From positions 43,475,546 to 43,539,545 of the forward strand of contig CM055101.1 of NCBI GenBank assembly GCA_029204225.1: DNA of 64,000 bases. The letters are read 5' to 3'. How positions within the stretch are numbered: the first letter of the stretch is position 1; the number at the start of each line of letters is the position of its first letter. The notes under the pieces were generated by a model. The model was given only the letters and a program-made list of their open reading frames with translations. It was not told the origin of the DNA and did no database searches. A program made the position numbers and the translations under genes. Positions 8,092 to 61,258 of this stretch are shown here, piece by piece. The stretch is from Diphasiastrum complanatum (lineage: Eukaryota; Streptophyta; Lycopodiopsida; Lycopodiales; Lycopodiaceae).

Positions 8092-10474
8092 ATGGTGCAG
8101 TTCGACCTTTCCGATCTGTGGGACGAGGTGAACGTTGTCAGGCGGGTCCGACAAGACCAACAAGACCGGTCAGAAGGTCGTGCGTTGCCGATACTGCCTA
8201 GTCGAATTTGTTGCGTCCCTCACTCGCCGGCCACGTCTTGTGGCGGGGGAGAACACCATTTCGGAGGGCGTTCTCCGGTTTTGCACCGCTCCTTATGTGG
8301 CTGACCCAGAGTTGCTGCCTGCTTGGCTGGCACGCACGAGGAGAGGGAGTGCATTCTCGTCCCGTCCCATTGCTCCTCATCCCCCTCAGACAGTTCCACC
8401 ACACGCACCCCCATCTGCACCCATTCCGGTGGATCCCGTCCCCTCGCGTCCGCCAGTTGCCACTACGGTTCCACCACCACGTCCTGTTGCTCGCACGCCC
8501 CCAGTTTACGATTTTCTCATGGACTCTCCGCCACCCGAGCAGGCCCAGGATGCTAGTGACGAGGCCTTCGAGGATGTTGAGGAGATCCCTCCCTCCCTTC
8601 GTTCCCATCCGGATGATGTCCTTAGCCAACAGTTTTCGTATCCCATGCCAGATGTTGCCCCTCCAGTGTACCCCACTTATGTTGCTGCACCCATCCGTGC
8701 CAGTGCATCCCACTCTCCCCATCCCACGTCTACAGCCGATGCATCCACTAGTGCCCAGCCTGTCGCGTCATCATCCATTCCCGTCACGGTTGATGCACCA
8801 TGCTGGAGGTCCACTACCCGTCGCCCACCAGCAGGGAGAGCCCTTACACAGCAGACCATTCGCGGCGTGCATCAGCCGCACATGGACAGAGAGGCCACAC
8901 AGGTCGTGGCCAGTTTGATATATGAGCTGAACCTTCCTTTTGCCATCACCGATTTTGAGCCTTTCAGAAGGGTATTCCGCCTTGCACAGTCTGTCAGCCC
9001 TAGCTGGAGAGTCCCTAGTTCAGAGGTTGTTTGCACACACATGCTGAGAGATAGGGTCGAGTCCTTGTCTAGAGAGATGGAGCCTCTACGCCGCCACTGG
9101 GCCACATATGGATGCAGCATCATGTCCGATGGCTGGACTGATGTCAGGAGGAGGCTGACCTCAACATCTTGGTCTCCAGCTGCATGGGTACAGAATTTTT
9201 GAGAGCCGTGGATTGCAGTTGAGGGGGGAGAGTCATATCTGCAGAGTTCATGTATGACGTCATTAGGTCTTCCATCCTGTCCATAGGCCCCCCAGCATGT
9301 CGTTACGGTGGTGACGGACAATGCCACCAACTGCGTTCAGATGGGTGTCCTGCTAGAGGTCGAGTTCCCTCACATCGTCCATACCCCCTGTGCAGCGCAC
9401 GACATAGACCTTCTCATGGGGGACATAGGTGCAGTTCCCTGGGTTAGAGCCATCGTCCGCAAGGCCCTCTTCCTGGTGACTTTTGTCACCAGAAAGAGGC
9501 GTGTTCTTGCCATGTTCCGGGTGTTCAGCCATTTGGACCTCCAGAAGCCAGCCCCCACACGCTTTGCTTTCGACTTGGTGGTGATCGACCGTCTGATCAG
9601 GTGCAGGGCACAACTTCTACAGATGGTTGCCAACGATCTTTGGCGTGCCAGTACGTTTCAGCACACTGAGGATGGGGAGCACTTTTCTTCCACGGTGAGG
9701 GGAGAGCAGTTCTGGAGGGATGTGCAGACATTGTCAGGACTTTTTCGACCACTCTACATTGTGCTTCGCATGGCTGACAGCGAGGGGTTCACACTTGGAC
9801 TAGTGTATGAGCTCGTGGACCGGATCAGACAATTCCTGCAGCTGCCCATCTTACAGCCAGAGAGGTAAGCAGTATAGTAATGTAATTGGTCTTTATCTTT
9901 TCAGTGGTTGCTAGTTTGTTTTTTTGTCGATGTTACGTTTTTTCCGTAATTCGTGTAGGATGACGGAGCTGAAGTTCATTTGGGAGACGCGGTGGAACTA
10001 CTTTCACAGGAGTATCCACAGCGTTGCATACATCTTGCATCCCCTCTTCCTCTCTCCGACACAGATATCAGACAGGGAGCTCGAGTCGGATTGGCTTGAG
10101 TACATATATAGGGTGGGTCCACACATTGGCTTGGATCCTATCATACTCATGGAGGAGCTAGCTGCATTTCGTTTCGGCATGGGCACGTTCGGTCACCCGG
10201 CTGCTCAGGATCCTGAGGATGATGCCGATGCCGATGAGACCACCACCCTCCCTGCTAACGTGCCATTGCCCTCCTCTGATGATGAGCTCACATATGATTC
10301 AGACGAGACAGTCGACCTAGCAAGGGTTGGTCCACGTGCCCCACCCAGTACCCCCGCATCACGCCCCCTTTTAGATGATGGCTGGTCAGAGTTTGCGAGG
10401 GAGACAGAGGCTGCTGCCCAGAGACAGATAGTGCAGAGACGACTCAGAGCATCACAGGCAGGCAGTTCTTCCTA
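8092..10474 (+). pseudogene. hAT transposase (BED finger, DUF659-type), broken
   Basis: The best start is ATG 8092 (MVQFDLSDLWDEVN); a one-base shift just after it is needed to enter the long frame at 8135. A BED-type finger comes first (VRCRYCLVEF...), then a Pro/Ser-rich linker (about 8370-8860), then a DUF659-like block with GCSIMSDGWTDVRRR near 9110-9155. A one-base loss near 9153 and later a one-base gain near 9290 enclose a shifted stretch that would also contain a TGA. The hAT core resumes (TVVTDNATNCVQM, HTPCAAHDIDLLMGDIG) to about 9866. A GT...AG intron fits 9867-9958; the next exon gives MTELKFIWETRWNYF and an acidic tail ending at 10474. The hAT dimerisation motif is weak. Confidence 0.85.
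9867..9958 (+). other. Predicted intron in hAT transposase
   Basis: The coding frame ends ...LQPER at a GTAAGC donor and resumes after a pyrimidine-rich stretch and TGTAG acceptor with MTELKFIWETRW. The intervening 92 bases are T-rich and contain stops. Confidence 0.6.
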
Positions 10475-25777: not shown

Positions 25778-26511
25778 TGTTAGAAGTCAGTATTTGTCTT
25801 ATTTGTCCTTTAATGGAGATTCCTCTATTGATGCTCTGACTGCGAAGTCGAGGTACCAGAAAGTACACCCTGGACGGTTGTCAGGGGTCATCAGAGTTTA
25901 TTTTCTCCCTGGGTGGAATCTTTTGAAGAGATAGCATGGTGAGTATAGAGGAATCTCCAGGCTTGGATTGCGTGACTTCATGGGGTTAATGCCATATTTA
26001 ATGAAGTTGGGGCAATGTATATGGTTTTGAGGACCCAAGGAGCATATTTTTAACTTTTGGTCAATGTGCTCAAGTTTGAAGGGGCCCAACTCATAATGGG
26101 GGGTCCATGGGGCAAGTGATCTTCTTCTCCAATTAGCACTTGGTTGTCCAATGCCAAGGCTTTTCATTTGCTTTTGTAACTCCTATGTAACATGGCTCTT
26201 GGCTGTTGGCTTTTGGATATTCACATTGGAAACCATTGGCCTCTATCTCTACTAGTATAAGTAGGTGCTCTCTTTCTGCTGAAGAGTAGAGAAAGGGCTC
26301 GAAGAGGCTGAAGAGGAGGAAGAGCCTGAAGAGGCTGGAGAGACTAGAGAGAGTGGCAATGCTTATGTACATACATTCTTTGTATAGAGATTTGTTTCCA
26401 TTGATATCCTAGTTTGCTTCCACTAGTATGCATAATTTGTGATTGTTCATAAAACATTAATCACTTAATTCATTATGAATGTTTTCGCTTCTAGTTCACC
26501 TTGAATTCCGA
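25778..26511 (+). repeat. 5' LTR
   Basis: Begins TGTTAGAAGTCA and contains a TATA-like CTAGTATAAGTAGG and the AG-rich stretch after it. It closes with TTCACCTTGAATTCCGA, followed by a degenerate primer site. It is highly similar to 28815-29562 across its length. Confidence 0.8.
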
Positions 26512-28814: not shown

Positions 28815-29562
28815 TGTTAGAAGTCACTATTTGTCTTATTTGTCCTTTGATGGAGATTCCTCTGTTGATGCTCTGACTGCGAAGTCGAGGTACTAGAAGG
28901 TACACCATGGATAGCTGTCACGGGGTCATCAGAGTTTATTTTCTCTCTGGGTGGAATCTTCTCAAGAGATAGCATGGCAATCGCGTATAGAGGAATCCCC
29001 AGGCTTGGATTGCGTGACTTCATGGGGTTAATGCCATATGTAATGAAGTTGGGGCAATGTATATGGTTTTGAGGACCCAAGGAGCATTTTTGAAATTTTT
29101 GGTCCATGTACTCAAGTTTGGAGGGGCCTAACTCATAATGGGGGGTCCATGGGGCAAGTGATCTTCTTTTCCAATTAGCACTTGATTGTCCAATGCCAAG
29201 GCTTTTCATTTGCTTTTGTAACTCATATGTAACATGGCTCTTGGTTGTTGGCTTTTGGATATTCCACATTGGGAACCATTGGCCTTTGGATTTCTCTATC
29301 TCTACTAGTATAAATAGGCGCCCTCTTTCTGCTGGAGAGTAGAGAAAGAGCCCGACGAGTCTAAAGAGGAGGAAGAGCTTGAAGAGGCTGGAGAGACTTG
29401 AGAGAGAGGCTGCTTATGTACATACATTCTTTGTAAAGAAATTTGTCTCCATTGATATCCTACTTTGCTTCCACTAGTATGCATAGTTTGTGATTGTTCA
29501 TAGAACATTAATCACTTAATTCATTGTGAATATTTCCACTTCTAGTTCACCTTGAATTTCGA
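28815..29562 (+). repeat. 3' LTR
   Basis: Begins TGTTAGAAGTCA like the upstream LTR. It is preceded by a purine-leaning stretch (GATGGGGGTAAAAC about 40 bases upstream). TATA-like CTAGTATAAATAGG lies near 29305. Confidence 0.8.
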
Positions 29563-31474: not shown

Positions 31475-32289
31475 CTACCTAAGGTTACCATACATTTTTA
31501 TCCATTTAAGTGAAAATTACTCATCAATCTTGAACTAGAAATTGTCAAGATCCATTTTTCTAGCTACCTTGTTCAATTTTGGATCAAAAGAGATCAAAAG
31601 GACATTGATTGGGTCTGACCTGGTACTGTACGGAATCAGGTGCTCGGACACGTGTGAGGAACATCCAATTTCAGTTTGGGAGTTCTCTCTCATGCTTGAT
31701 CCATTTATCTTGCTTGATAGCTTGTTTTGAAGCTTTTTTTGCTAGTTTCTGATGCAATCAGTTTCATTCCATTTGGTTGAGCCAATCAGAAGTTATGAGC
31801 TTTTGAAGAGGGTTAGGTAGGACACCTAGACCTGGATGGACACATTTGGTTTGGTCAAGAGATTGCTTGGTTGTTCCAAAATTACAGTTGAATGCTTACC
31901 AATCTCATCTATATGTGATCTAGGCACTGTTTTGAGATCTTAGCCATTTTGTTTCATGCAATATCATTGTATTTGAGTCAAATTTGGTTTCTTAGTGTAC
32001 TTCACACATGCTAAGAGTGTTTGATCCTAACTTTGCCCATACTCCATCATTTGATGTGAAATAGATCTTGTTTTAGAGAGATTTGTGTATCTTGTGAGAA
32101 TCAATTCACAAATAGTTGCAAGATCTTTCATAGGAGGAGATAGTTCTCCATTATTGGATCCTATTGAGAGTGTGTAGCAACATTTATTGTTCATCATTTG
32201 AGTTTTCTTCACTTCAAATGTCTTCAATGGGGTCATCCTTGTTGGAACCAAGTGAAAGATTGTCTACTTCAAACTATTCAATTTGAAAA

Positions 32290-35200
32290 ATGAGGATGGA
32301 GTCCATCTTGATCCTTCAAGACGTGATGGACATAGTTCTTGGCCTTGAAGAAGAACCACAAGTTCTTCAAGAGGTTCAAAAATACAAAAAGAGAGCTAGG
32401 ATGGCTCTCCACTACATTAAGATGAATGTCTCTAATGAGATATTGAGGGAGATAGTTACTTGTACAACAGCTAAAGAAGCTTGGGATTGTCTCAAGACTA
32501 TCTATGAGGCTAAGAATACCTCTAGGCTTCTCACTCTTAGGAATCAAATCTTTCAAAGTAGCCAAAAGAGTGATGAGAGTGCATCTAGTTATGTTTTGAG
32601 AGTAAAAGATATTCATAGAGAGCTTGCTTGTATTGGTGATTCCATCAATCAAAATGAGCTAGTTCAAGTCATTCTCAATGGCTTGAGAAGTGAATTTGAT
32701 AATCTTGTCCAATCCTATGCCATTAAGGAGGAGCTACCAAGTTTGGAGGCTCTCCAAAGTGTGCTAATTTCAGAAGAATCAAGACAAGAGTATAAGCTCT
32801 TGAGGATGGACAAGCTTTCTCTCACTCATAATGATGGCAAAGCTCTTTTTGCCAAGGATAAGCACAAAGAGAGGAGCAAGAACCAACATCAACAATCCTC
32901 AAGCAAGGACAAAGTCAAATCCAAAGACAAAGATGAGGAGGAAGATGATTCCTCTAATGCTTCATCATCCAAGCTCAAGAAGAAGAAGATCAAGTGCTTT
33001 TATTGTGGCAAGAAAGGCCATTATGCCACCAATTGCTTCAAGAAGAAGAATCAGCTCAAGCAAGCCAACATTACCAATGAGAAGGAAGACACTATTGCAA
33101 GTGAAGGAGAGGGATCTCTTATGGTCTCTAGTTTCTCATCTACTCATTTCAAGAAGGACGGCCTATGGTATATTGATAGTGGAGCCTCTTCACATATGTG
33201 TAGCTCCAAGGACTCTTTCTCTTCTATTGCACCTTATGATGGAGTCAAGACATCAATATACACTGCAAATGATTTTGAATGTCCTATTGAAGGCATAGGG
33301 AACATTCCCTTGAAGCTTGCATCCACTAAACTTCTTTCTCTCTCTAAAGTTCTTTATGTACCTAAGCTTACTAAGAATCTCATTAGTGTTGGCCAATTGC
33401 TTGATAATGGCCTTGATGTAAAATTCAATGTTGATACTTGCACTATTAAGAAGAATGATGAGATACTTGCATTAGGATCTAGATTTGGAGGCATCTATAA
33501 ACTAGATCCAAATGAGTATGTGAATGCTTGTAATGTTGCTCTTGTGAACAAGCTCTCTATGGAGGAATTATGGCATAGGAGGTTGGGACATCCCAACTAC
33601 AAATCCATGCTCTCTATGATCAAAGAGGTCAAAGCTATTGGCTTGCCAAAGTCATTCTCCAAGAAGATCAAGCCTTGTGAGGCTTGTGCTATTGCTAAAT
33701 CTCACAAAAAGCCATTTACAAGATTTTCTATCAAAAGCAAGCATCCTTTGGAGTTAATCCACTCGGATGTGCATTTCTCATCAACTATAAGCAAGGGAGG
33801 AGCCACTTGTTTTGTTACTTTCATTGATGATTTCACAAGATTCACTTGGATATATCTTCTTGCTTCTAAATCTATGGTGTTTGATCATTTCCTTATTTTC
33901 AAAGCTTATGTAGAGAAGCAATTCTCATTCAAGATTAAAGCTTTTAGATGTGATGGAGGTGGTGAATATATCTCCAATAAATTTCATGATTTTTGTGAGC
34001 TTGAAGGCATAAAAAGGGAGTTCTCTTGTGCCTACTCTCCATCTCAAAATGGAGTGGCCGAGAGAAAGAATAGATCTCTATGTGAATGTGCAAAATCTAT
34101 GAGAATTGAGGCATCTTTTCCCAAAGATTTTTGGGGAGAAGCCATTAATTGTGCAAATTATCTTTGCAATAGGCTCCCACATATAGCTCTTGGAGGAAAG
34201 TCACCATATGAAATATTATATTTGAAGAAGCCTAAGGTTGATCACCTTAGAGTTTTTGGATGCATATGCTTTTCCCATATTCCCTTGGAAACAAGGAAGA
34301 AGGAAGATCCTAGTGCATGCAAAGGGATCATGGTTGGATACTCATCCACCAAGAAGGCCTATAGAGTGTTTGTACTCTCTACTTCTCAAGTTATTGAAAG
34401 TAGAAATGTTGTCTTTCATGAAGATCAACACTTATCTTTTGAAGAGGCCGAGATCAAGAAGTCTATGGATGCATCACCTATTATTGATTTTGAAGACAAT
34501 TATGATGTGATCGGGTCGAGATTTGAAGAAGACTCTCCTCGGATTTTCTCACCAAGAAGATCCATGAGAGATAGATCCGAGCCTAAGAGGCTCTCATATG
34601 TTGACAAAGGCAAACAAGTGGATCTTGATTCCACTAATTATGTTATTTATGTCTCTCATGAAGAGCCAAAGAATGTACAAGAGGCACTCAATACCAAGGA
34701 GTGGTATGATGCCATGAAGCAAGAGTATGATGCATTGATCACCAACAATACTTGGGAGCTTGTGGATCCTCCATCCAACAAGCATGTGATTGGTTGCAAG
34801 TGGGTATTTTGGATCAAGTTCAATTATGATGGCACCATCAACAAGTATAAAGAAAGATTATGTGCCAAAGGATTTGCTCAAATCCATGGCCTTGATTATG
34901 AGGAGACCTTTGCACCCGTTGCAAAGATGGTGACAATAAGAATTCTTATTTTTCTTGCTTGTTTCTTTAAGTGGAAGGTGTTCCAATTAGATGTATCCAA
35001 TGCTTTTCTAAATGGTTATCTTGAGGAGGAGATTTATATGGAACAACCTCAAGGATTCATCAAGGATGAGTCCAAAGTGTGCTTGCTCTTCAAAAGTCGT
35101 TATAAACTCAAGCAAGCACCAAGATCATGGTATTCAAGATTTAATTCTTTTCTTATCTCACTAGAATTTACTCTTAGTGACTATGATCCTTCCATGTATC

Positions 35201-35664
35201 TAAAGTTTGTTGATAGCAATATTGTCATTCTTCTAATTTATGTTGATGACATTATTCTTTGTGGAAGTTGTATCAAGCTAGTTGATGAAACTAAGCTAGC
35301 ACTTGGATGTGAGTTTAAAATGCAAGATCTAGGAGAGATACATTACATACTAGGCCTAGAAATTGATTTTTATGAAAATCATGTCTTTATATGCCAATCT
35401 AGATATGCTCACTCTATGCTGAAAAATTTTCATATGGAAAATTCTAAGAGCATAGGTACTCCAATGGAGCAAATTGTAAAAGATCCTAATAAAGGTGATG
35501 AAAGATCCTTTGAGGACATCACACTTTTTAGGAGTCTTGTAGGCTCCTTGATTTGGCTTACCATTACTATGTCTGATCTAAGTTTTTGTGTGCACAAATT
35601 GAGTCAATTTATGCAAGATCCTAAGATCCATCATTGGAAAATATTTCCATATTTGGCATATTGA
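32290..35664 (+). CDS. Copia gag-pol polyprotein, C-terminally truncated
   Basis: One open frame of 1,124 residues. Gag (about 1-235) ends in a CCHC knuckle CFYCGKKGHYATNC (236-249). Protease has DSGASSHM with Asp at 296. Integrase has an HHCC zinc site (LWHRRLGHPN at 427; Cys 463 and 466) and a D-D-35-E triad at D493, D555 and E591, in CDGGGEY and NGVAERKNR. Reverse transcriptase has D901 in QLDVSNAFLNG and YVDD at 984-987. The frame then reaches SQFMQDPKIHHWK and diverges into seven unrelated residues before a stop, so RNase H is absent. The ATG at 32290 fits gag, though the usual first residues differ. The open frame implies recent insertion, yet mobilisation would need RNase H and a 3' LTR from elsewhere. 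Confidence 0.93.
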   Translation: MRMESILILQDVMDIVLGLEEEPQVLQEVQKYKKRARMALHYIKMNVSNEILREIVTCTTAKEAWDCLKTIYEAKNTSRLLTLRNQIFQSSQKSDESASSYVLRVKDIHRELACIGDSINQNELVQVILNGLRSEFDNLVQSYAIKEELPSLEALQSVLISEESRQEYKLLRMDKLSLTHNDGKALFAKDKHKERSKNQHQQSSSKDKVKSKDKDEEEDDSSNASSSKLKKKKIKCFYCGKKGHYATNCFKKKNQLKQANITNEKEDTIASEGEGSLMVSSFSSTHFKKDGLWYIDSGASSHMCSSKDSFSSIAPYDGVKTSIYTANDFECPIEGIGNIPLKLASTKLLSLSKVLYVPKLTKNLISVGQLLDNGLDVKFNVDTCTIKKNDEILALGSRFGGIYKLDPNEYVNACNVALVNKLSMEELWHRRLGHPNYKSMLSMIKEVKAIGLPKSFSKKIKPCEACAIAKSHKKPFTRFSIKSKHPLELIHSDVHFSSTISKGGATCFVTFIDDFTRFTWIYLLASKSMVFDHFLIFKAYVEKQFSFKIKAFRCDGGGEYISNKFHDFCELEGIKREFSCAYSPSQNGVAERKNRSLCECAKSMRIEASFPKDFWGEAINCANYLCNRLPHIALGGKSPYEILYLKKPKVDHLRVFGCICFSHIPLETRKKEDPSACKGIMVGYSSTKKAYRVFVLSTSQVIESRNVVFHEDQHLSFEEAEIKKSMDASPIIDFEDNYDVIGSRFEEDSPRIFSPRRSMRDRSEPKRLSYVDKGKQVDLDSTNYVIYVSHEEPKNVQEALNTKEWYDAMKQEYDALITNNTWELVDPPSNKHVIGCKWVFWIKFNYDGTINKYKERLCAKGFAQIHGLDYEETFAPVAKMVTIRILIFLACFFKWKVFQLDVSNAFLNGYLEEEIYMEQPQGFIKDESKVCLLFKSRYKLKQAPRSWYSRFNSFLISLEFTLSDYDPSMYLKFVDSNIVILLIYVDDIILCGSCIKLVDETKLALGCEFKMQDLGEIHYILGLEIDFYENHVFICQSRYAHSMLKNFHMENSKSIGTPMEQIVKDPNKGDERSFEDITLFRSLVGSLIWLTITMSDLSFCVHKLSQFMQDPKIHHWKIFPYLAY

Positions 35665-36240
35665 GGCCAAAACTTGTTTTAGACTTAGAGGTTGACTTTT
35701 CAAAGTTCATTAGTCTAAATTTCATTTGAATAAACACTTTTTGAAAGTGTGGGAAAGTTAGAATGCGAGTTTGAGTAGATTCAATTTGAATAGTTGGGTA
35801 CATTGAATCTAGACCCAAGATTAGTAGGGTTAGCATTTTGGTGGGAAAGCCAAGTGGCCAAATAGGGTTTGGACCTATTATAAAAGGATGTAACTCATGG
35901 AGAGAGCAATCTTCTCTCTTCTCTATCTCATTTCATGCTTATACATGGTTCTCTTGGGTTCTACTATCCATTGGTGCACTATCTTGGTGATTGCTTGCAA
36001 TTCTATGCTTAGAATGATCTATATTTGTGAAATACAGTAGCTTGCTGGTTTTGTACAGACAGCAACAGTACATAATTATTTCATTCAATTTTGATCAAGT
36101 TCTATTAGTGTTTGCATCTCAAATTGTGTGTAGATGCTGATTTTTCTACATTGGTAAAATTGGTAGTGTATTTCTCTTTCTAACCAAGATCATTCAAGTA
36201 GATTGGATCTTAAGGATCTGAAATCTTTCACGGAAACCAT
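35665..36240. repeat. LTR-like stretch downstream of the truncated copia ORF
   Basis: Non-coding, with a TATA-like TATTATAAAAGG at about 35877 followed by a CT-rich stretch (TTCTCTCTTCTCTATC), as in many copia LTRs. It is not the same family as the 5' LTR at 31299. No partner was found in the window, so the call is tentative. Confidence 0.35.
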
Positions 36241-36843
36241 ACAACAATGTGATCCAAAACGTATATCCATGTCTTGAACAACATTCGAGAGAACACAATG
36301 AAGAAAACTTTGCTTGGATTAATAGCTAATCATAGTTACAAACCTATTCCAACCACTCCAAATATACCATACCTATGCCATGCCAACCAAGACATCGAAA
36401 CATATAAGAATTAAGCTTCCGAACAAGCACAAGCCCATACTTTTTGTGCTCATAGAACGTAATTTTTGTGCCTTACGATGTGGAAGGTGCATGTAAAAAA
36501 CATTGACATGACAATTTACGGCGAAGAAAAGAAGAAAAAAAAGTAAAAAAAAAACTTATCATGCTGCGGAAGGTCACCTCCTCGGCCATTCCACTGTGGG
36601 AAGGGACTTGCAAGGGTTTGGTAGGAAATAGAGAGGAGAAACGCAAAAGAAACATCAAAAATTAGAAGGGGCTTGCGGCTCTGTCAGGCGCACCTCTCTA
36701 GGTGCCATTCTCACTCATGCACCTCCTTTGACAAACCGCAAAGTGACTGTTGAAGAGAATTTAAGGTTGTACTTGTAGCACCTTTACTCTCGTACTTCTG
36801 CGCCGTCTGTCAGCCCTGGAAGGCCTTACCTAGGTCAACAGCT
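36241..36843. other. Intergenic, no gene seen
   Basis: No recognisable content apart from A-rich runs near 36525-36555. Confidence 0.4.
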
Positions 36844-37542
36844 ATGGAGGCTACGACACCCTCCACTTCCTTGCAAAACATGACAAGTCTAACAAACAAT
36901 GTCGTTTTAAAACATTCTAATATCCATGAGAAAATCGCAAATTGGACATCTATAATGACAGATGCCTTAAAAGTATTGCTTGAAAACCATCCTACTTACA
37001 CTCGCAAACAAATCATGCTAGAATTTCAACACATATTCCCAGAAATAAACTATACTTTTGCAACTGTATTTTATTGTATTAAAATACTTAAAAAAGGAAA
37101 CTACAAACATGTTAACAACATGGACATGTGATATGACAAACTATGTTAAAGAACTTGTTCAACAAACACCAACATTATCCAAAAAAACATATTATCAACA
37201 AATTCCAAACCAAATTTCCTCCTATTATGATGAAAAACGAACGTATTCTATATCGTATACGAAAAGCATCCTGCACCAATAAATGCGTGAACAATACAAG
37301 TACGACAAACATGAACACTTGCTCTAAAAAAGCGAAACACAACAAACAGTATTGGACTCACGATCTAATATTAGTCATTAGACAATTGATTTTGCAACAT
37401 CCTACATTATCTATAAAACAACTTATGACCAAATTCTTACATATATTTCCTGATGCGACATGCACAAAGGCTAGTATTTTGAATAGAATCACATGCGCTC
37501 GTCGACATGCAGTATACAACAAATCGAGAAACCCGATTTCTT
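36844..37542 (+). pseudogene. Three tandem ~55-residue modules upstream of Helitron Rep
   Basis: Allowing one-base shifts in two A6-type runs (near 37092 and 37183), the translation holds three copies of one module. Module 1 has NWTSIMTDALKVLLENHPTY and KQIMLEFQHIFPE. Module 2 has TWTCDMTNYVKELVQQTPTL and HIINKFQTKFPP. Module 3 has YWTHDLILVIRQLILQHPTL and KQLMTKFLHIFPD; each ends in an Ile-Leu-Arg-Ile-like segment. The W-T start, P-T turn and amphipathic helices suggest a helix-turn-helix or Myb-like DNA-binding repeat, but I cannot assign a family. It ends at a TAA near 37540, about 50 bases before the DUF6570-like frame. Confidence 0.55.
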
Positions 37543-37589
37543 AACAGGTAACTAAGAATCAAACAAACCAAGAATCCAGCAACTGGAAC

Positions 37590-38225
37590 TTGAGTTTAAC
37601 AAAATACTATGAACGTATTGAAGATACTCCAATTTATCCATGTATTAGTTGTGAATCTATCTTTTTCCGTTTTCAAATGCACATCGCAAATTCTGAAAGC
37701 ATAAATTTTATCGAGACACTAAAACCCATTTCTTTTGATCTATATATCGAAACTACTTGCTACATATGCAAAGATTGCCGGAAAAACGTACTGCAAAACA
37801 AACTGCCCAAATTTTTTTCACCTATAAATATGTGTTTAAATCCTGAAATACATTCAATTACAACACTCAATGAATTAGAAGAATGTTTACTAGCTCCTAG
37901 AATTGCTTTCTTACAAATACATGAATTAGTGCACCAAGGTCAGTTTGGAACAACTGGAAGCATCATAAATGTACTTGCCAATCTTGACAAAATACAAAAT
38001 ATATTGCCACGTTTTATAGACAATGACAGTGCCATGATTATTGGCCTTAAAAGAAAACTCGAATACAAAACAAACTATATGATTGGCAAAGTCCGTCCCA
38101 TGAAACTAATGACTGCTCTTGTCGATCTTTGTAAAACTCCATTATACCAAAAACTAGGAATGTTAACCATTCTTGGAAAACGTATTTTGACAATCTTGCA
38201 AAACATTCATGCTCACCAAACATAG
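37590..38225 (+). pseudogene. DUF6570-like protein of Helitron element
   Basis: A 211-codon frame. It begins with a Cys-rich part (YPCISCESIFF, then CYICKDCRKN) that looks like a zinc site. It then has LNELEECLLAPRIAFLQIHE and SIINVLANLDKIQNILPR, the signature of the DUF6570 domain found N-terminal to Helitron replicases. The frame ends where the next Helitron segment (NEETIIDDTLIHP..., EELKYPALYFG) continues in another frame. It belongs to the same broken polyprotein as the Rep domain. Confidence 0.75.
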
Positions 38226-39897
38226 ATGAATCCAGCAACCACGAAACTGATAATGAAGAAACCATTATAGATGACACATTAATACATCCATTTACAAGTA
38301 ATAAATATGTTGTCGATTACGAAAACTGCTACAAAACTATCGCTCCTTGTGAAGGTCAAAATCCTATTGGAATATTTCAAGATACATATGCTGAAGAACT
38401 TAAATACCCAGCACTATATTTTGGATCTCGACGCATAATGCATGTTTCTAACAAATACACATATCAGCACATTGCAAAATGGGAATTGTTGCACTATAAA
38501 AACAAATTTAGACAACATACAACAAGCCTGTTTTTCAAAGCAATCAGAATACTTGTTCATCAAATACTTGGTTCTATCTGGATAAGATTACAAAAAGGTA
38601 CATTTCAAAATAAAAAAATTGACAGCAAAAGACGTGATTCATGACACAAATATTGAACAAATGCTTCATTCAAATTTAGGATATCAAGATTTTTACCATA
38701 TTCGCACATCTCCTGATTATAAACAGAGTTTGCATAAAAATATTTTTGCAATGATGCGACAACTAGGACCACCCACATTTTTTATAACATTATCTTCTGC
38801 CGAACATAAATTGTCACCACTCATGTGTTGTTTACAAAAACTAAACTCGAACATTTCACATCGTGGTGATTACAAAACTAAAAATGATTTTTTTAGAAAC
38901 TTGATCAGACATGATCCAACAACGTGTGCAAGATATTATATCATGAAAATAAATGCACTTCGCACATTGATATTAAAAAAAATAGATACCTTAGGAAATA
39001 TTCAAGATGATTTTTTTGTTACTAAATTTCAAAATCATGGCAGTCAACATGAACACGGATTACTATGGGTTGCAAATGCACCAATATATGAAAAAGCACC
39101 TGAAACTAAAATTACTCAATTTACAGATATATACATTTCATGTGATAGTTCAAAACTCGACACAAAATCTAGATATACAAACTCATCATCATAGATCCAC
39201 ATGTTATAAAACTCGAATATCTAAACAATGTCGCTTTCATTACCCACGACCACCAATGCCATACACTAGTATTTTGCATCTGTATCCAGAAATAGACATA
39301 TCAAAAACCTCTACCTTAAACTACATCGATACAGTAAAACGTGCAAATTTTCTAACATGGCTTGCTACATTGCAAATACTGCTTTCTGATTATATAAAAG
39401 CAATACGCATCAATTTGAAAAAACCAACAATATTTTTGCAACGCCATCCAAAAGACGTATACACAATTTACTGTTACAATTTCAATCCATCCATAAGTCA
39501 GCTTTGGAATGCAAATATGGATTTGCAATATATTCTTCATCCATATGCAGCTGCAAGTTACTGCACATCGTATTTAACAAAAATTGATACTACTCTTTCG
39601 CAATCATTAAAACATGCATTTACAGAATTTATACATCAAAATGTAAATACATATACAAGATTAAAAAAACATGGGCAATGCATTTTTAAATGCACAACAA
39701 ATGAGTGCACAACTTGCAGCATTTATTGTATCATCATTACGTTTACATGCTTCCATGAGAACATTCACATTCATTAATACGAACCCTGAACCAACACGAG
39801 CATTTGTTCTTAAAAACAAACAAAGTTTGCAATGTCTTCATCTCGATTCAACAGACATCCGATATGCAACAAAAATTGAAAAATACCTTACTTGACC
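38226..39897 (+). pseudogene. Helitron replicase (Rep/HUH) domain, frameshifted
   Basis: Frames join to give the Helitron N-terminal region: FFITLSSAEHKLSPLMCCLQ, FFRNLIRHDPTTCARYYIMK and then the HUH motif QHEHGLLWV (H-E-H at 39048-39056). A shift near 39180 leads to QTHHHRSTCYK, CRFHYPRPPM and AIRINLKKPTIFLQRHPKD. The YCTSYLTK motif follows, with two Tyr codons at 39559 and 39571, the expected catalytic pair for rolling-circle nicking and joining. A further shift near 39670 gives MGNAFLNAQQMSAQLAAFIV. Catalytic residues are visible but the frame is broken at least four times. Confidence 0.82.
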
Positions 39898-40500
39898 TGT
39901 TGACTATTCAAGCCTTTGTTTAGCAGAATTCACTGCAAAATATCGATTAACAACATCGCAAATATGCAAACGTCGAAAATCTCAAATAATTAGATACGTA
40001 AATTACAACAAACTTAAAGATTCTGAAAATTTTTATCGTGAACATCTGCTTCTATATAAACCATTCCAAGTATCAGAATACATGATTCTAGAATCACATT
40101 CATCGTACGAAGCTGCGTACCATGCACACTATGACATAATACAACACAACAAATAAAAACTTCATTTCAATCAAGAACTTGACAAATATGCACGCTGCAT
40201 TTGGGAAGACTCCGAAAACGAATCATCAAACACTGAAACATCAAATCAAAACCTGAATATCTGTAACATCAATAATTATGATCTACAGACTGAATTTCCA
40301 ACTCATGCATAATGCAACCCCAAAAAACAAATAGATACAACTCCAAAATTAACATACAAAATCATGAATCAAAATACATATTATCACGAACTTGCAAAAT
40401 TAAATCCCATGCAACGCCTGCTTTTTGACGACATAATGCACAAAAAACGAACAAATAACAAAAAACGAATTCATCTATATTTGACTGGAGGCACTGGTAC
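39898..40500 (+). pseudogene. Rep-helicase linker and start of PIF1-like helicase
   Basis: After a stop at 39893, frames give RRKSQIIRYVNYNKLKDSEN and FYREHLLLYKPF, the usual linker in Helitron proteins. From about 40362 the frame gives AKLNPMQRLLFDDIMHKK and IHLYLTGGTGT, the beginning of the PIF1-type helicase up to its Walker A loop. The Walker A Gly-Lys is missing; the sequence diverges immediately at about 40501. The rest of the helicase is deleted. Confidence 0.72.
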
Positions 40501-40514
40501 AATTATTTAATACA

Positions 40515-40690
40515 CTACACAGTAAAATTATTCATGCTATATTTGCTCATAAAGCCCACAATGTACATATTATTGCAATATATAGACAACCAACAACTAA
40601 ATATAATACTTAACAATATTCCCAAAAACGCACCCACTATTATATTGAGCGACATAAATATTAATGCATTAAACATAATGGGCCTTGGAG
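40515..40690 (+). pseudogene. Endonuclease/exonuclease/phosphatase-like fragment
   Basis: Two frames join to give AHNVHIIAIYRQP, then NIILNNIPKNAPTIILSDIN followed by IN. This resembles the strand-turn segment around the catalytic D(F)N motif of EEP-fold (AP-endonuclease-like) domains, with DIN in place of DFN. Such a domain follows the helicase in Helentrons. Its position directly after the truncated helicase supports a large internal deletion rather than chance. The fragment is short, so the assignment is moderate. Confidence 0.5.
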
Positions 40691-40868
40691 GATATAAGTA
40701 TACCCATTGGGCTCTCACTAGTGCATGTTGGATTGTGGTAATGGTAGTCGAATGTTGTCGGTTTGACATCTCTCTCCTATTAAGCATTGGTAGAAGTGTG
40801 TGTTTACATTGTAGATGACTACTCAAAAGATGAATCTAGGTGAATAGGAGTAAAATTAAACTCCAATA
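40691..40868 (-). repeat. Copia 3' LTR start, truncated
   Basis: Read on the minus strand it starts TATTGGAGTTTAATTTTACTCC directly after the polypurine tract CTTAAGAGGGAG. The same start with few differences occurs at 45783 (TGTTGGAGTTAATCTTACTC), so this is a family LTR. The far part merges into the Helentron fragment. Confidence 0.6.
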
Positions 40869-58329: not shown

Positions 58330-59133
<804 letters not shown>

Positions 59134-60515
59134 GGGTCCTCGGCCCAAAGTAGTGTCGGTCCCTCGGCACTAGGCTGCAACTGTCGTGGATGGGCGATGT
59201 TGTCGGTTCTTTTATTGCTGAAAAATGGATGCTTCAGAAAAAATGTGGATAGAATTCGCTTACATAAAACCTGAGGCTTTATTGGATGATGGCAATCAGC
59301 AAGAACTTGGACTTGCCAGATTTTCAATAATACCCGTAAGGGTCTGGTGGCCATTCCGGATAACCTTGTCCATTGACAATTGGGTAGTTGATGCATTCCA
59401 TCGGAGGATCCCAAGATAAATCTTGCTGATATAATGAATTCTCATAGAAAGATGCAACTGGTCCCAATGTCCTAGCCCCCCCCCCCCCCCCACCAAATTT
59501 TAAAGTGGATATGACGTGCTTGCTTGACTCTCTTGTCTGTCCAGGTATTCGTGGTATGCTATAACCTGACGACTTTCCTCAACAGTCAATATCATAGATT
59601 GAGGACAAGGCTTTGTCATTGTAGGCACTGGTGCTTGCTGTACTGGAGGCCTATTTGGGCTTGGATTCCCTAGATTTGGCCTTTGAAGAATGGACATACC
59701 CCGAATTGGCATTCATTTGGGGGTCTGTTGAATTGTGGAACAATTAGACTTTGGTTGAATCTTACTCGTTGAGGGGCAATCATCAACTTTAGTCTTCCCT
59801 TGATCATTGCACTTCTCTGTTGAAGGCTACGTGATTGCGCTTTTTCTTGGATCTTGTGTCTGCCTTCAATTTGCTCTTTTGACACTGGTCCCCTTTGTAA
59901 TTCATCACGAAGAAATCCTTGCAATGATTGTGCTAAGAGCCTTGATAGAACCTGCTGGAATTCCTTGGTTTTCAATCTCTTGACTTCCTCAACTATCACA
60001 GGCTTGATCTATTCTGCTAGCTCTTGCTTCTGTGATGTTGTTGTCGGTTTGTTCGTGGGTGTTTCTATGTGCCTTGGGACTTTTGTCAAATTGTCTTCTT
60101 CCTCACTCGTTTCATAACCCGGTGGCACTAAGATTTTTCTTTTATAGTGCGTTCGAGGTGGAAGGGTCACCACAGGTGCATGTCGGTCTACATAGGCCAA
60201 ATGCCTCCTGGCTATTTGTGAATTTCTCATCGGACAATTTTGGCATGGATGATTGACTCCGCATTGTGCACAACATGGTTCGAATGTTGATGGATCTCCT
60301 CGATGTGGACATTTAGCTTGACGATGTTTTCTTTCGAATCCATAGCATCTTACCGAGTGCAATATACCATCGCCTCTAAGTTGATAGACATACACTGGTA
60401 GTAGATTCCTCTTAGGATCTTCCACAAAATAAACTGGTAGGCTATTGTGGTCTTCCTGACATCATCTTTGAGAAAATATGGTTGTCTTTTGACTATGGTG
60501 ACATGACACTATAAT
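59134..60515 (-). pseudogene. Gag-like, Cys-rich ORF remains between the repeats
   Basis: The minus frame from 60425 reads VYQLRGDGILHSVRCYGFER and PCCAQCGVNHPCQNCPMRN, a Cys-rich block that could bind zinc. The next frames read FQQVLSRLLAQSLQGFLRDE (from 59999) and IAPQRVRFNQSLIVPQFNRP (toward 59670), then MTKPCPQSMILTVEESRQVI (59712-59500). The Gln- and Pro-rich composition and zinc-like block suggest a retroelement gag, but no canonical CCHC knuckle or polymerase is present. Confidence 0.45.
59478..59491. repeat. C-homopolymer
   Basis: A run of about 14 C; the flanking sequence shows no other structure. Confidence 0.8.
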
Positions 60516-60612
60516 CGGTCGCTACTTAGAGAGAGGAGAGAAGAGAGAGAGAATGTCTAGGTTGAGAAAGGCCTTGGGGGCTCGAGCGCCTACCCAAAGT
60601 TATTCTATCCCA

Positions 60613-60689
<77 letters not shown>

Positions 60690-61258
60690 AGGTTGAGAAA
60701 GGCCTTGGGGGCTCGAGCGCCTACCCAAAGCTATTCTATCCCAACGTAGGGAGAGAGAGAGAAAGAGAGAGATGGAGATAGAAATAGAAAGAGCAAGAAC
60801 TTTATTTAGAATAGAGATGATGCTTTACAATGAAAAGTGGCCTCCTTATATAGTTGAGAGGGGAGGCCATCTTGGCTCTCATTGGCCCTTTCTAATTGGC
60901 TAGAATCCTAATCCTAGCCATTCAAACGAAACTTATTGCAATCTAATGGTTCAATAAGAAGAGGACCAAACTCACATGATTCATGTGAGATTCCCTCAAC
61001 TTAGAACCATGTAACTTGACTTTGGAGTTTTTATTATTTTATTCTATTTAGGTCCCAAGTCTTTTATTCAAGTTCTACCTAACCATTTTGCGTGCTCATT
61101 GGGTTGGGCGTAAACACGCGCAGGACGCCAGTGCCCTCGCACTTATTATTCTAACTGTACAATGTACTGTGGCGTGGTCCACTAGGTAAGGCTTGGCCAA
61201 CAATATTTTAAGTGGTGGGACCGACTTGTTTATTTATGTACAAGAAATACCCACAACA
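60516..61258 (-). repeat. LTR-like repeat, copy 2
   Basis: Near-identical to 58376-59133 from TCGGTCGCTAC to AATACCCACAACA. It carries hairpin modules 60558-60615 and 60689-60748, separated by (GA)n at 60616-60688. If these are LTRs, this is the 5' copy of a minus-strand element with only 1.4 kb of interior. No primer site was found at 60515, so two independent solo LTRs are equally possible. Confidence 0.6.

Follow-up and report, generated by a model that had tools for sequence, protein, structure and literature searches.

We analysed a window of 64,000 nucleotides of Diphasiastrum complanatum DNA (the whole stretch), within which we took the three-frame translation of the block at ~36.9–40.68 kb and scanned it against Pfam in pieces. 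The parts of this block all lie on the plus strand. It begins with an N-terminal region (36914–37544) holding three tandem helix-turn-helix (HTH)-like units, shifted into three frames and recognized by shuffle tests between the units. There follow a DUF6570 domain (37545–38225; PF20209, 8.6e-6, 26.7 bits against a cut-off of 24.3), with 78% amino acid identity to the same-genome locus L047, and a Helitron-type HUH Rep (38586–39194; PF14214 (Helitron_like_N), 3e-18, 67.2 bits against a cut-off of 28.9) with motif 2, GSQHEH, at 39039–39056. Using tblastn to relatives, we placed the C-terminal part of Rep at 39172–39777, with its Y-x3-Y motif (YCTSY, 39559–39573) 0.5 kb downstream of GSQHEH, and a Rep–helicase linker with in-frame stops at 39665–40312. 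The PIF1-like helicase starts at 40313 and ends in Walker A at 40501 (LTGGTGT, 40481–40501); it matches the relatives, and its score of 116 against the L030 helicase was reached by none of 5000 shuffles. A 16-base deletion joint (40502–40517) leads into an EEP endonuclease fragment in two frames (40518–40677), identified by matches to relatives, with IYRQP at 40578–40592 and SDININ at 40648–40665; SDIN stands in place of the GDFN of most relatives shown. An unrelated repeat (40678–40733; 89% match to 62410–62355) ends the element on the right, and no family pieces were found beyond it within the window.

This is the order that the sequence-only reading had described (DUF6570, HUH Rep, PIF1 start cut at Walker A, EEP-like piece), now supported by Pfam for the first two parts and by relatives for the rest, and the HEH and Y-x3-Y that it reported in Rep could both be placed. 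Its endonuclease piece, drawn at 40515–40690, holds up as a piece but not in its right end, which stops at ~40677. It had also assigned most lesions to A runs. The frame shifts near 38613 and 39668 do lie in A7 runs, as judged by eye, but further lesions fall outside such runs, among them the largest, the deletion at 40501/40518.

The last helicase residue of the window corresponds by tblastn to position 5259 of L037 and the first EEP residue to 6841, so that 1581 bases of the L037 helicase are replaced by 16 bases in the window copy. Helicase deletions in L035 and L041 have other end points, and the loss in the window therefore seems to be decay peculiar to this copy and not a design without helicase. 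The 3′ end and ~1.58 kb of the helicase are gone, and the window copy, having lost most of its helicase, is unable to move itself.

A second Helentron copy is probably represented by a helicase fragment at 36233–36447 (plus strand), which adjoins a copia LTR and shows 84% DNA identity to L044 4980–5192 (68% amino acid identity, E = 1.7e-21). Since the main copy is 62% identical to L044, in a different part of the element, this fragment probably derives from a separate element of the L044 lineage. The copia element itself occupies 32287–36231 and contains a 1125-aa open frame with gag, integrase and RVT_2. Its stretch at 35640–36231 looks like an LTR because it recurs in L045 (93%) and L047; a search of the window turned up no further copy of it.

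Relatives in the same genome and the endonuclease domain

A search of the genome for DUF6570 gave 50 matches among 66 scored candidates, spread over many contigs, and we took stretches of 10 kb from 20 of these 50 places. The window DUF6570 piece finds a match in all 20 loci. By tblastn, the helicase is present in 13, EEP in 12 and the helicase followed by EEP in 11 of the 20. EEP is present but a helicase match is not in L041, the reverse holds for L029 and L031, and tblastn detected neither domain in L032, L034, L045, L046, L047 and L048; one of these six loci is masked over most of its length. PIF1 exceeded the Pfam cut-off in L040, L042, L044, L037 and L030. Four pairs are near-identical (L029/L030, L031/L033, L034/L035 and L040/L042) and match beyond the common block of the family, so the 20 loci are not 20 independent insertions. 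None of the fetched loci retains an unbroken Rep–helicase–EEP frame; the longest ORF in the family region is 649 aa, with one partly masked locus set aside.

Phylogenetic analysis of the DUF6570–Rep block resolved three lineages: {window, L047}, {L044, L045} and the 16 others, each of the first two being supported at 1.0, as is the group that they form together. The 16-member lineage is younger, because its members are mostly 90–95% identical to one another, with L048 and L039 somewhat lower; the window copy shows 52–53% DNA identity to most of them. No relative turned up in three scans of viral contigs.

The endonuclease assignment depends on these relatives. Neither window EEP piece matched an EEP profile in Pfam, nor did both joined with X, and single pieces of the window block gave no PIF1 match there either. 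The absence of such a match at 40515–40690 was the outcome that the sequence-only reading had named as counting against it, and taken literally it does so, but we uphold the identity because relatives in the same genome carry EEP. In alignments to the EEP domain of L035 the two window pieces fall on neighbouring stretches, with scores reached by 1 and 0 of 5000 shuffles; the corresponding matches to L044 are weaker (2 and 1 of 5000). Among seven relative ORFs spanning EEP that were tested, four scored above a Pfam cut-off (24.5 and 27.4 bits): L030 (34.1 and 31.4 bits), L043 (33.6 and 29.6), L035 (41.4 and 34.7) and L041 (28.3, PF14529 only). L037 fell just under both (23.4 and 22.6 bits), and L036 and L044 gave no EEP match in Pfam at 0.01; the L044 ORF covers no more than the first half of the domain, while several EEP motifs are altered in L036. 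The motifs LNTRS, LQET, GDFN and SDH, read by eye in the relatives, are presumably those of EEP. In L035, one unbroken ORF includes both PIF1 motif VI (3e-6 to a solved PIF1) and EEP, and in the L044 ORF the helicase likewise reads on into EEP.

Rep motifs, N-terminal repeats and composition

PMC4067079 gives two signatures of Helentron Rep that hold in most cases: a serine between the glycine and the residue before HxH, and F/Y-x-R. The first is present, as G-S precedes the histidines in the window and in every one of the 10 relatives, among 20, whose motif can be read, whereas the canonical Helitrons of the same genome read G-L in 7 of 7 legible loci (of eight; the motif was not found in L008). 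The second is absent near Rep motif 2: by eye, against the text of PMC4067079, legible copies read FAFV or FFV before TxFQ, and the published arginine three residues ahead of the Rep motif is a valine in this family. Y-CTS-Y is shared by the window and 13 of the 20 loci. Both histidines of the HUH motif are retained. The window has E between them and all 10 legible relatives have D; the HUH family takes its name from a hydrophobic residue at that position (PMC6213432). At E up to 1, the sole PDB match of the L030 Rep ORF was Helraiser (7lcc, E = 0.0047), and the L035 helicase end also matches this structure. The resemblance to the family Rep is weak. Helraiser is a canonical animal Helitron and is not known to carry EEP.

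The HTH-like units of the window resemble one another: no score among 2000 shuffles equalled that of the first against the third, or of the middle unit's first half against each. Its second half resembles the other two weakly (33 and 68 of 2000). L036, from the younger lineage, has two such units (0 of 5000), and likeness between lineages is weak (10 of 5000) or nil (3158 of 5000), depending on the pair. A single-sequence model of the third unit gave three helices with a mean pLDDT of 75. A fold search with the unit gave no significant match (best E = 1.4); its weak matches included homeodomain and paired domains but also ribosomal proteins.

The sequence-only reading had called the block markedly A-rich against its surroundings, and base composition agrees: A is 0.398 in the block and 0.273 in window positions 1–30000, and G is 0.119 and 0.214, respectively. 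The coding strands of the window copy, L044 and two copies bounded at both ends range from A 0.385 to 0.398 and G 0.119 to 0.140. As L044 and the bounded copies are similarly A-rich, this is a trait of the family and not of the window insertion; it may reflect a foreign origin or a strand bias. Rep stretches of 540 bases from eight canonical Helitrons of the same genome gave A 0.265–0.311 and G 0.213–0.259.

Ends of the element and relation to described families

Ten 3′ ends are visible among the 20 loci. All stop at CACCTTGTT, and the sequence diverges beyond it into nine different flanks, with one in common to L040 and L042. With stretches upstream of them added, L037 and L043 are delimited at both ends, by a block of 9665 bp in L037 that is 93% identical between the two and lies at unrelated sites. 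Both start with CATTACC and, 78 bases from the 5′ end, contain a short hairpin in which four bases separate ATGCGC from GCGCAT. No subterminal inverted repeats were found in these two copies, where inverted matches between the opening 200 and the closing 150 bases reach at most 8, and shuffled sequences fold about as well as the 3′ end (z = 0.46). Their 3′ flanks start with TT, one 5′ flank ends in TTT and the other in an AG repeat, and no target-site duplication was seen at either copy. With CATTACC at the 5′ end (two copies), CACCTTGTT at the 3′ end (ten) and no significant hairpin there, the family lacks the 5′-TC, 3′-CTRR and 3′ hairpin of canonical Helitrons. Neither the canonical Helitrons nor the textbook Helentrons have termini like these. 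By eye, ORFs in the upstream part of the 9.67-kb element (L049:1250–1750, minus strand, and L050:1700–2461) look RPA/OB-like, with a cysteine pattern. Tests of this reading on one such ORF gave it no support: no Pfam profile exceeded its cut-off, no PDB match was better than 0.91 and the model had a mean pLDDT of 34.

Like the Helentrons described in PMC4067079, this family combines Rep, a PIF1 helicase, a C-terminal EEP domain and G-S before HxH, and comprises several copies with one 3′ end together with internally deleted copies. It differs from them in lacking both the 12–15-bp subterminal inverted repeats and the 3′ palindrome, which are structural rather than naming traits, in lacking the arginine signature, in showing the TT target in one of two copies, and in its plant host; its tandem HTH-like N terminus and DUF6570 are possible further differences. 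Helitron2 and proto-Helentron elements belong to the Helentron-like Rep/helicase group and have non-canonical ends, as does this family, but PMC5148889 and PMC4067079 describe proto-Helentron and the surveyed fungal Helitrons as being without an endonuclease. The canonical Helitrons L001–L008 of the same genome have a Helitron_like_N Rep in common with it (27–29% amino acid identity for the better matches) and differ in their G-L motif and in being without the A-rich bias. In view of the helicase followed by EEP in 11 of 20 relatives, in one frame in L035, and of the Rep G-S signature, though not the arginine, the Helentron reading stands. The window block is very probably a dead, internally deleted and 3′-truncated copy of a Helentron-type rolling-circle transposon whose family is resident in this genome.

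Origin of the family and its residence in the genome

The abundance of canonical Helitrons in this genome (150 scored of 1332 candidates), together with the missing Pfam match of the window EEP piece, would suit a canonical plant Helitron remnant bearing an EEP-like string by chance. We judge this very improbable given the recurrent helicase–EEP order and its single frame in L035, the G-S in place of the canonical G-L, and the differing composition. That order and the unbroken passage from helicase into EEP in L035 weigh equally on the idea that a LINE endonuclease fragment came by chance to lie beside a Helitron remnant; although EEP domains also occur in LINEs, and Pfam names PF14529 'Endonuclease-reverse transcriptase', we give this slightly less credence still. 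Least credible of all is assembly contamination. Earlier plant matches could not be separated from it, according to PMC4067079, but the 20 copies fetched here lie within contigs of 48–102 Mb and have different flanks, and the window block adjoins a copia LTR also present in L045 and L047. This genomic context argues against contamination.

A recent entry of Helentrons into the plant lineage from an animal, fungus or protist is unlikely without being negligible. The coding strand is unusually A-rich and G-poor, and Helentrons are mainly known from animals and fungi (PMC4067079); composition is, however, weak evidence, and three diverged lineages in one genome imply either long residence or several arrivals and thus count against a single recent one. 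Long residence is the reading we set beside this. We see about an even chance that Helentrons are genuine long-term residents of a plant genome, in at least three diverged lineages of which one is young, and form a branch with an anatomy of its own: HTH-like units in tandem at the N terminus, DUF6570, a catalytic motif with an acidic middle residue (HDH/HEH), and termini that resemble neither those described for Helitrons nor those described for Helentrons.

By analogy with known families, an intact member would move when Rep nicks one strand at the element end through its tyrosine, after which the helicase would peel the strand off for joining into a new site. The probable task of the EEP domain is to nick the target or to assist in resolving the joint, and that of the HTH-like repeats is probably to recognize the element's own ends.

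Thomas et al. (2014; PMC4067079) described Helentrons as widespread in opisthokonts and did not report them from most plants; the few plant contigs with such sequences were short and may be contamination. In a literature search by titles and the starts of abstracts, we recognized no report of plant Helentrons beyond those doubtful ones, and we do not claim priority. The present data place endonuclease-bearing rolling-circle elements in a host presumed from its transposons to be a plant, on long contigs, in three lineages and with one 3′ end against nine flanks. If long-term residence is the true reading, it would settle for this host the question of contamination raised in 2014. The defined ends offer a starting point for seeking empty sites, small derivatives and captured genes, and the acidic HUH residue and HTH-like repeats are departures open to bench testing.

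Other mobile elements have left traces elsewhere in the window. Two ORFs at 8132–9865 match DUF659, one of them under the cut-off, and we take them to be probably the remnant of a hAT-type transposon. Two pairs of direct repeats of 750–780 bp, 25778–26511 with 28815–29562 (91%) and 58372–59133 with 60512–61258 (87%), are possibly the LTR pairs of other elements.
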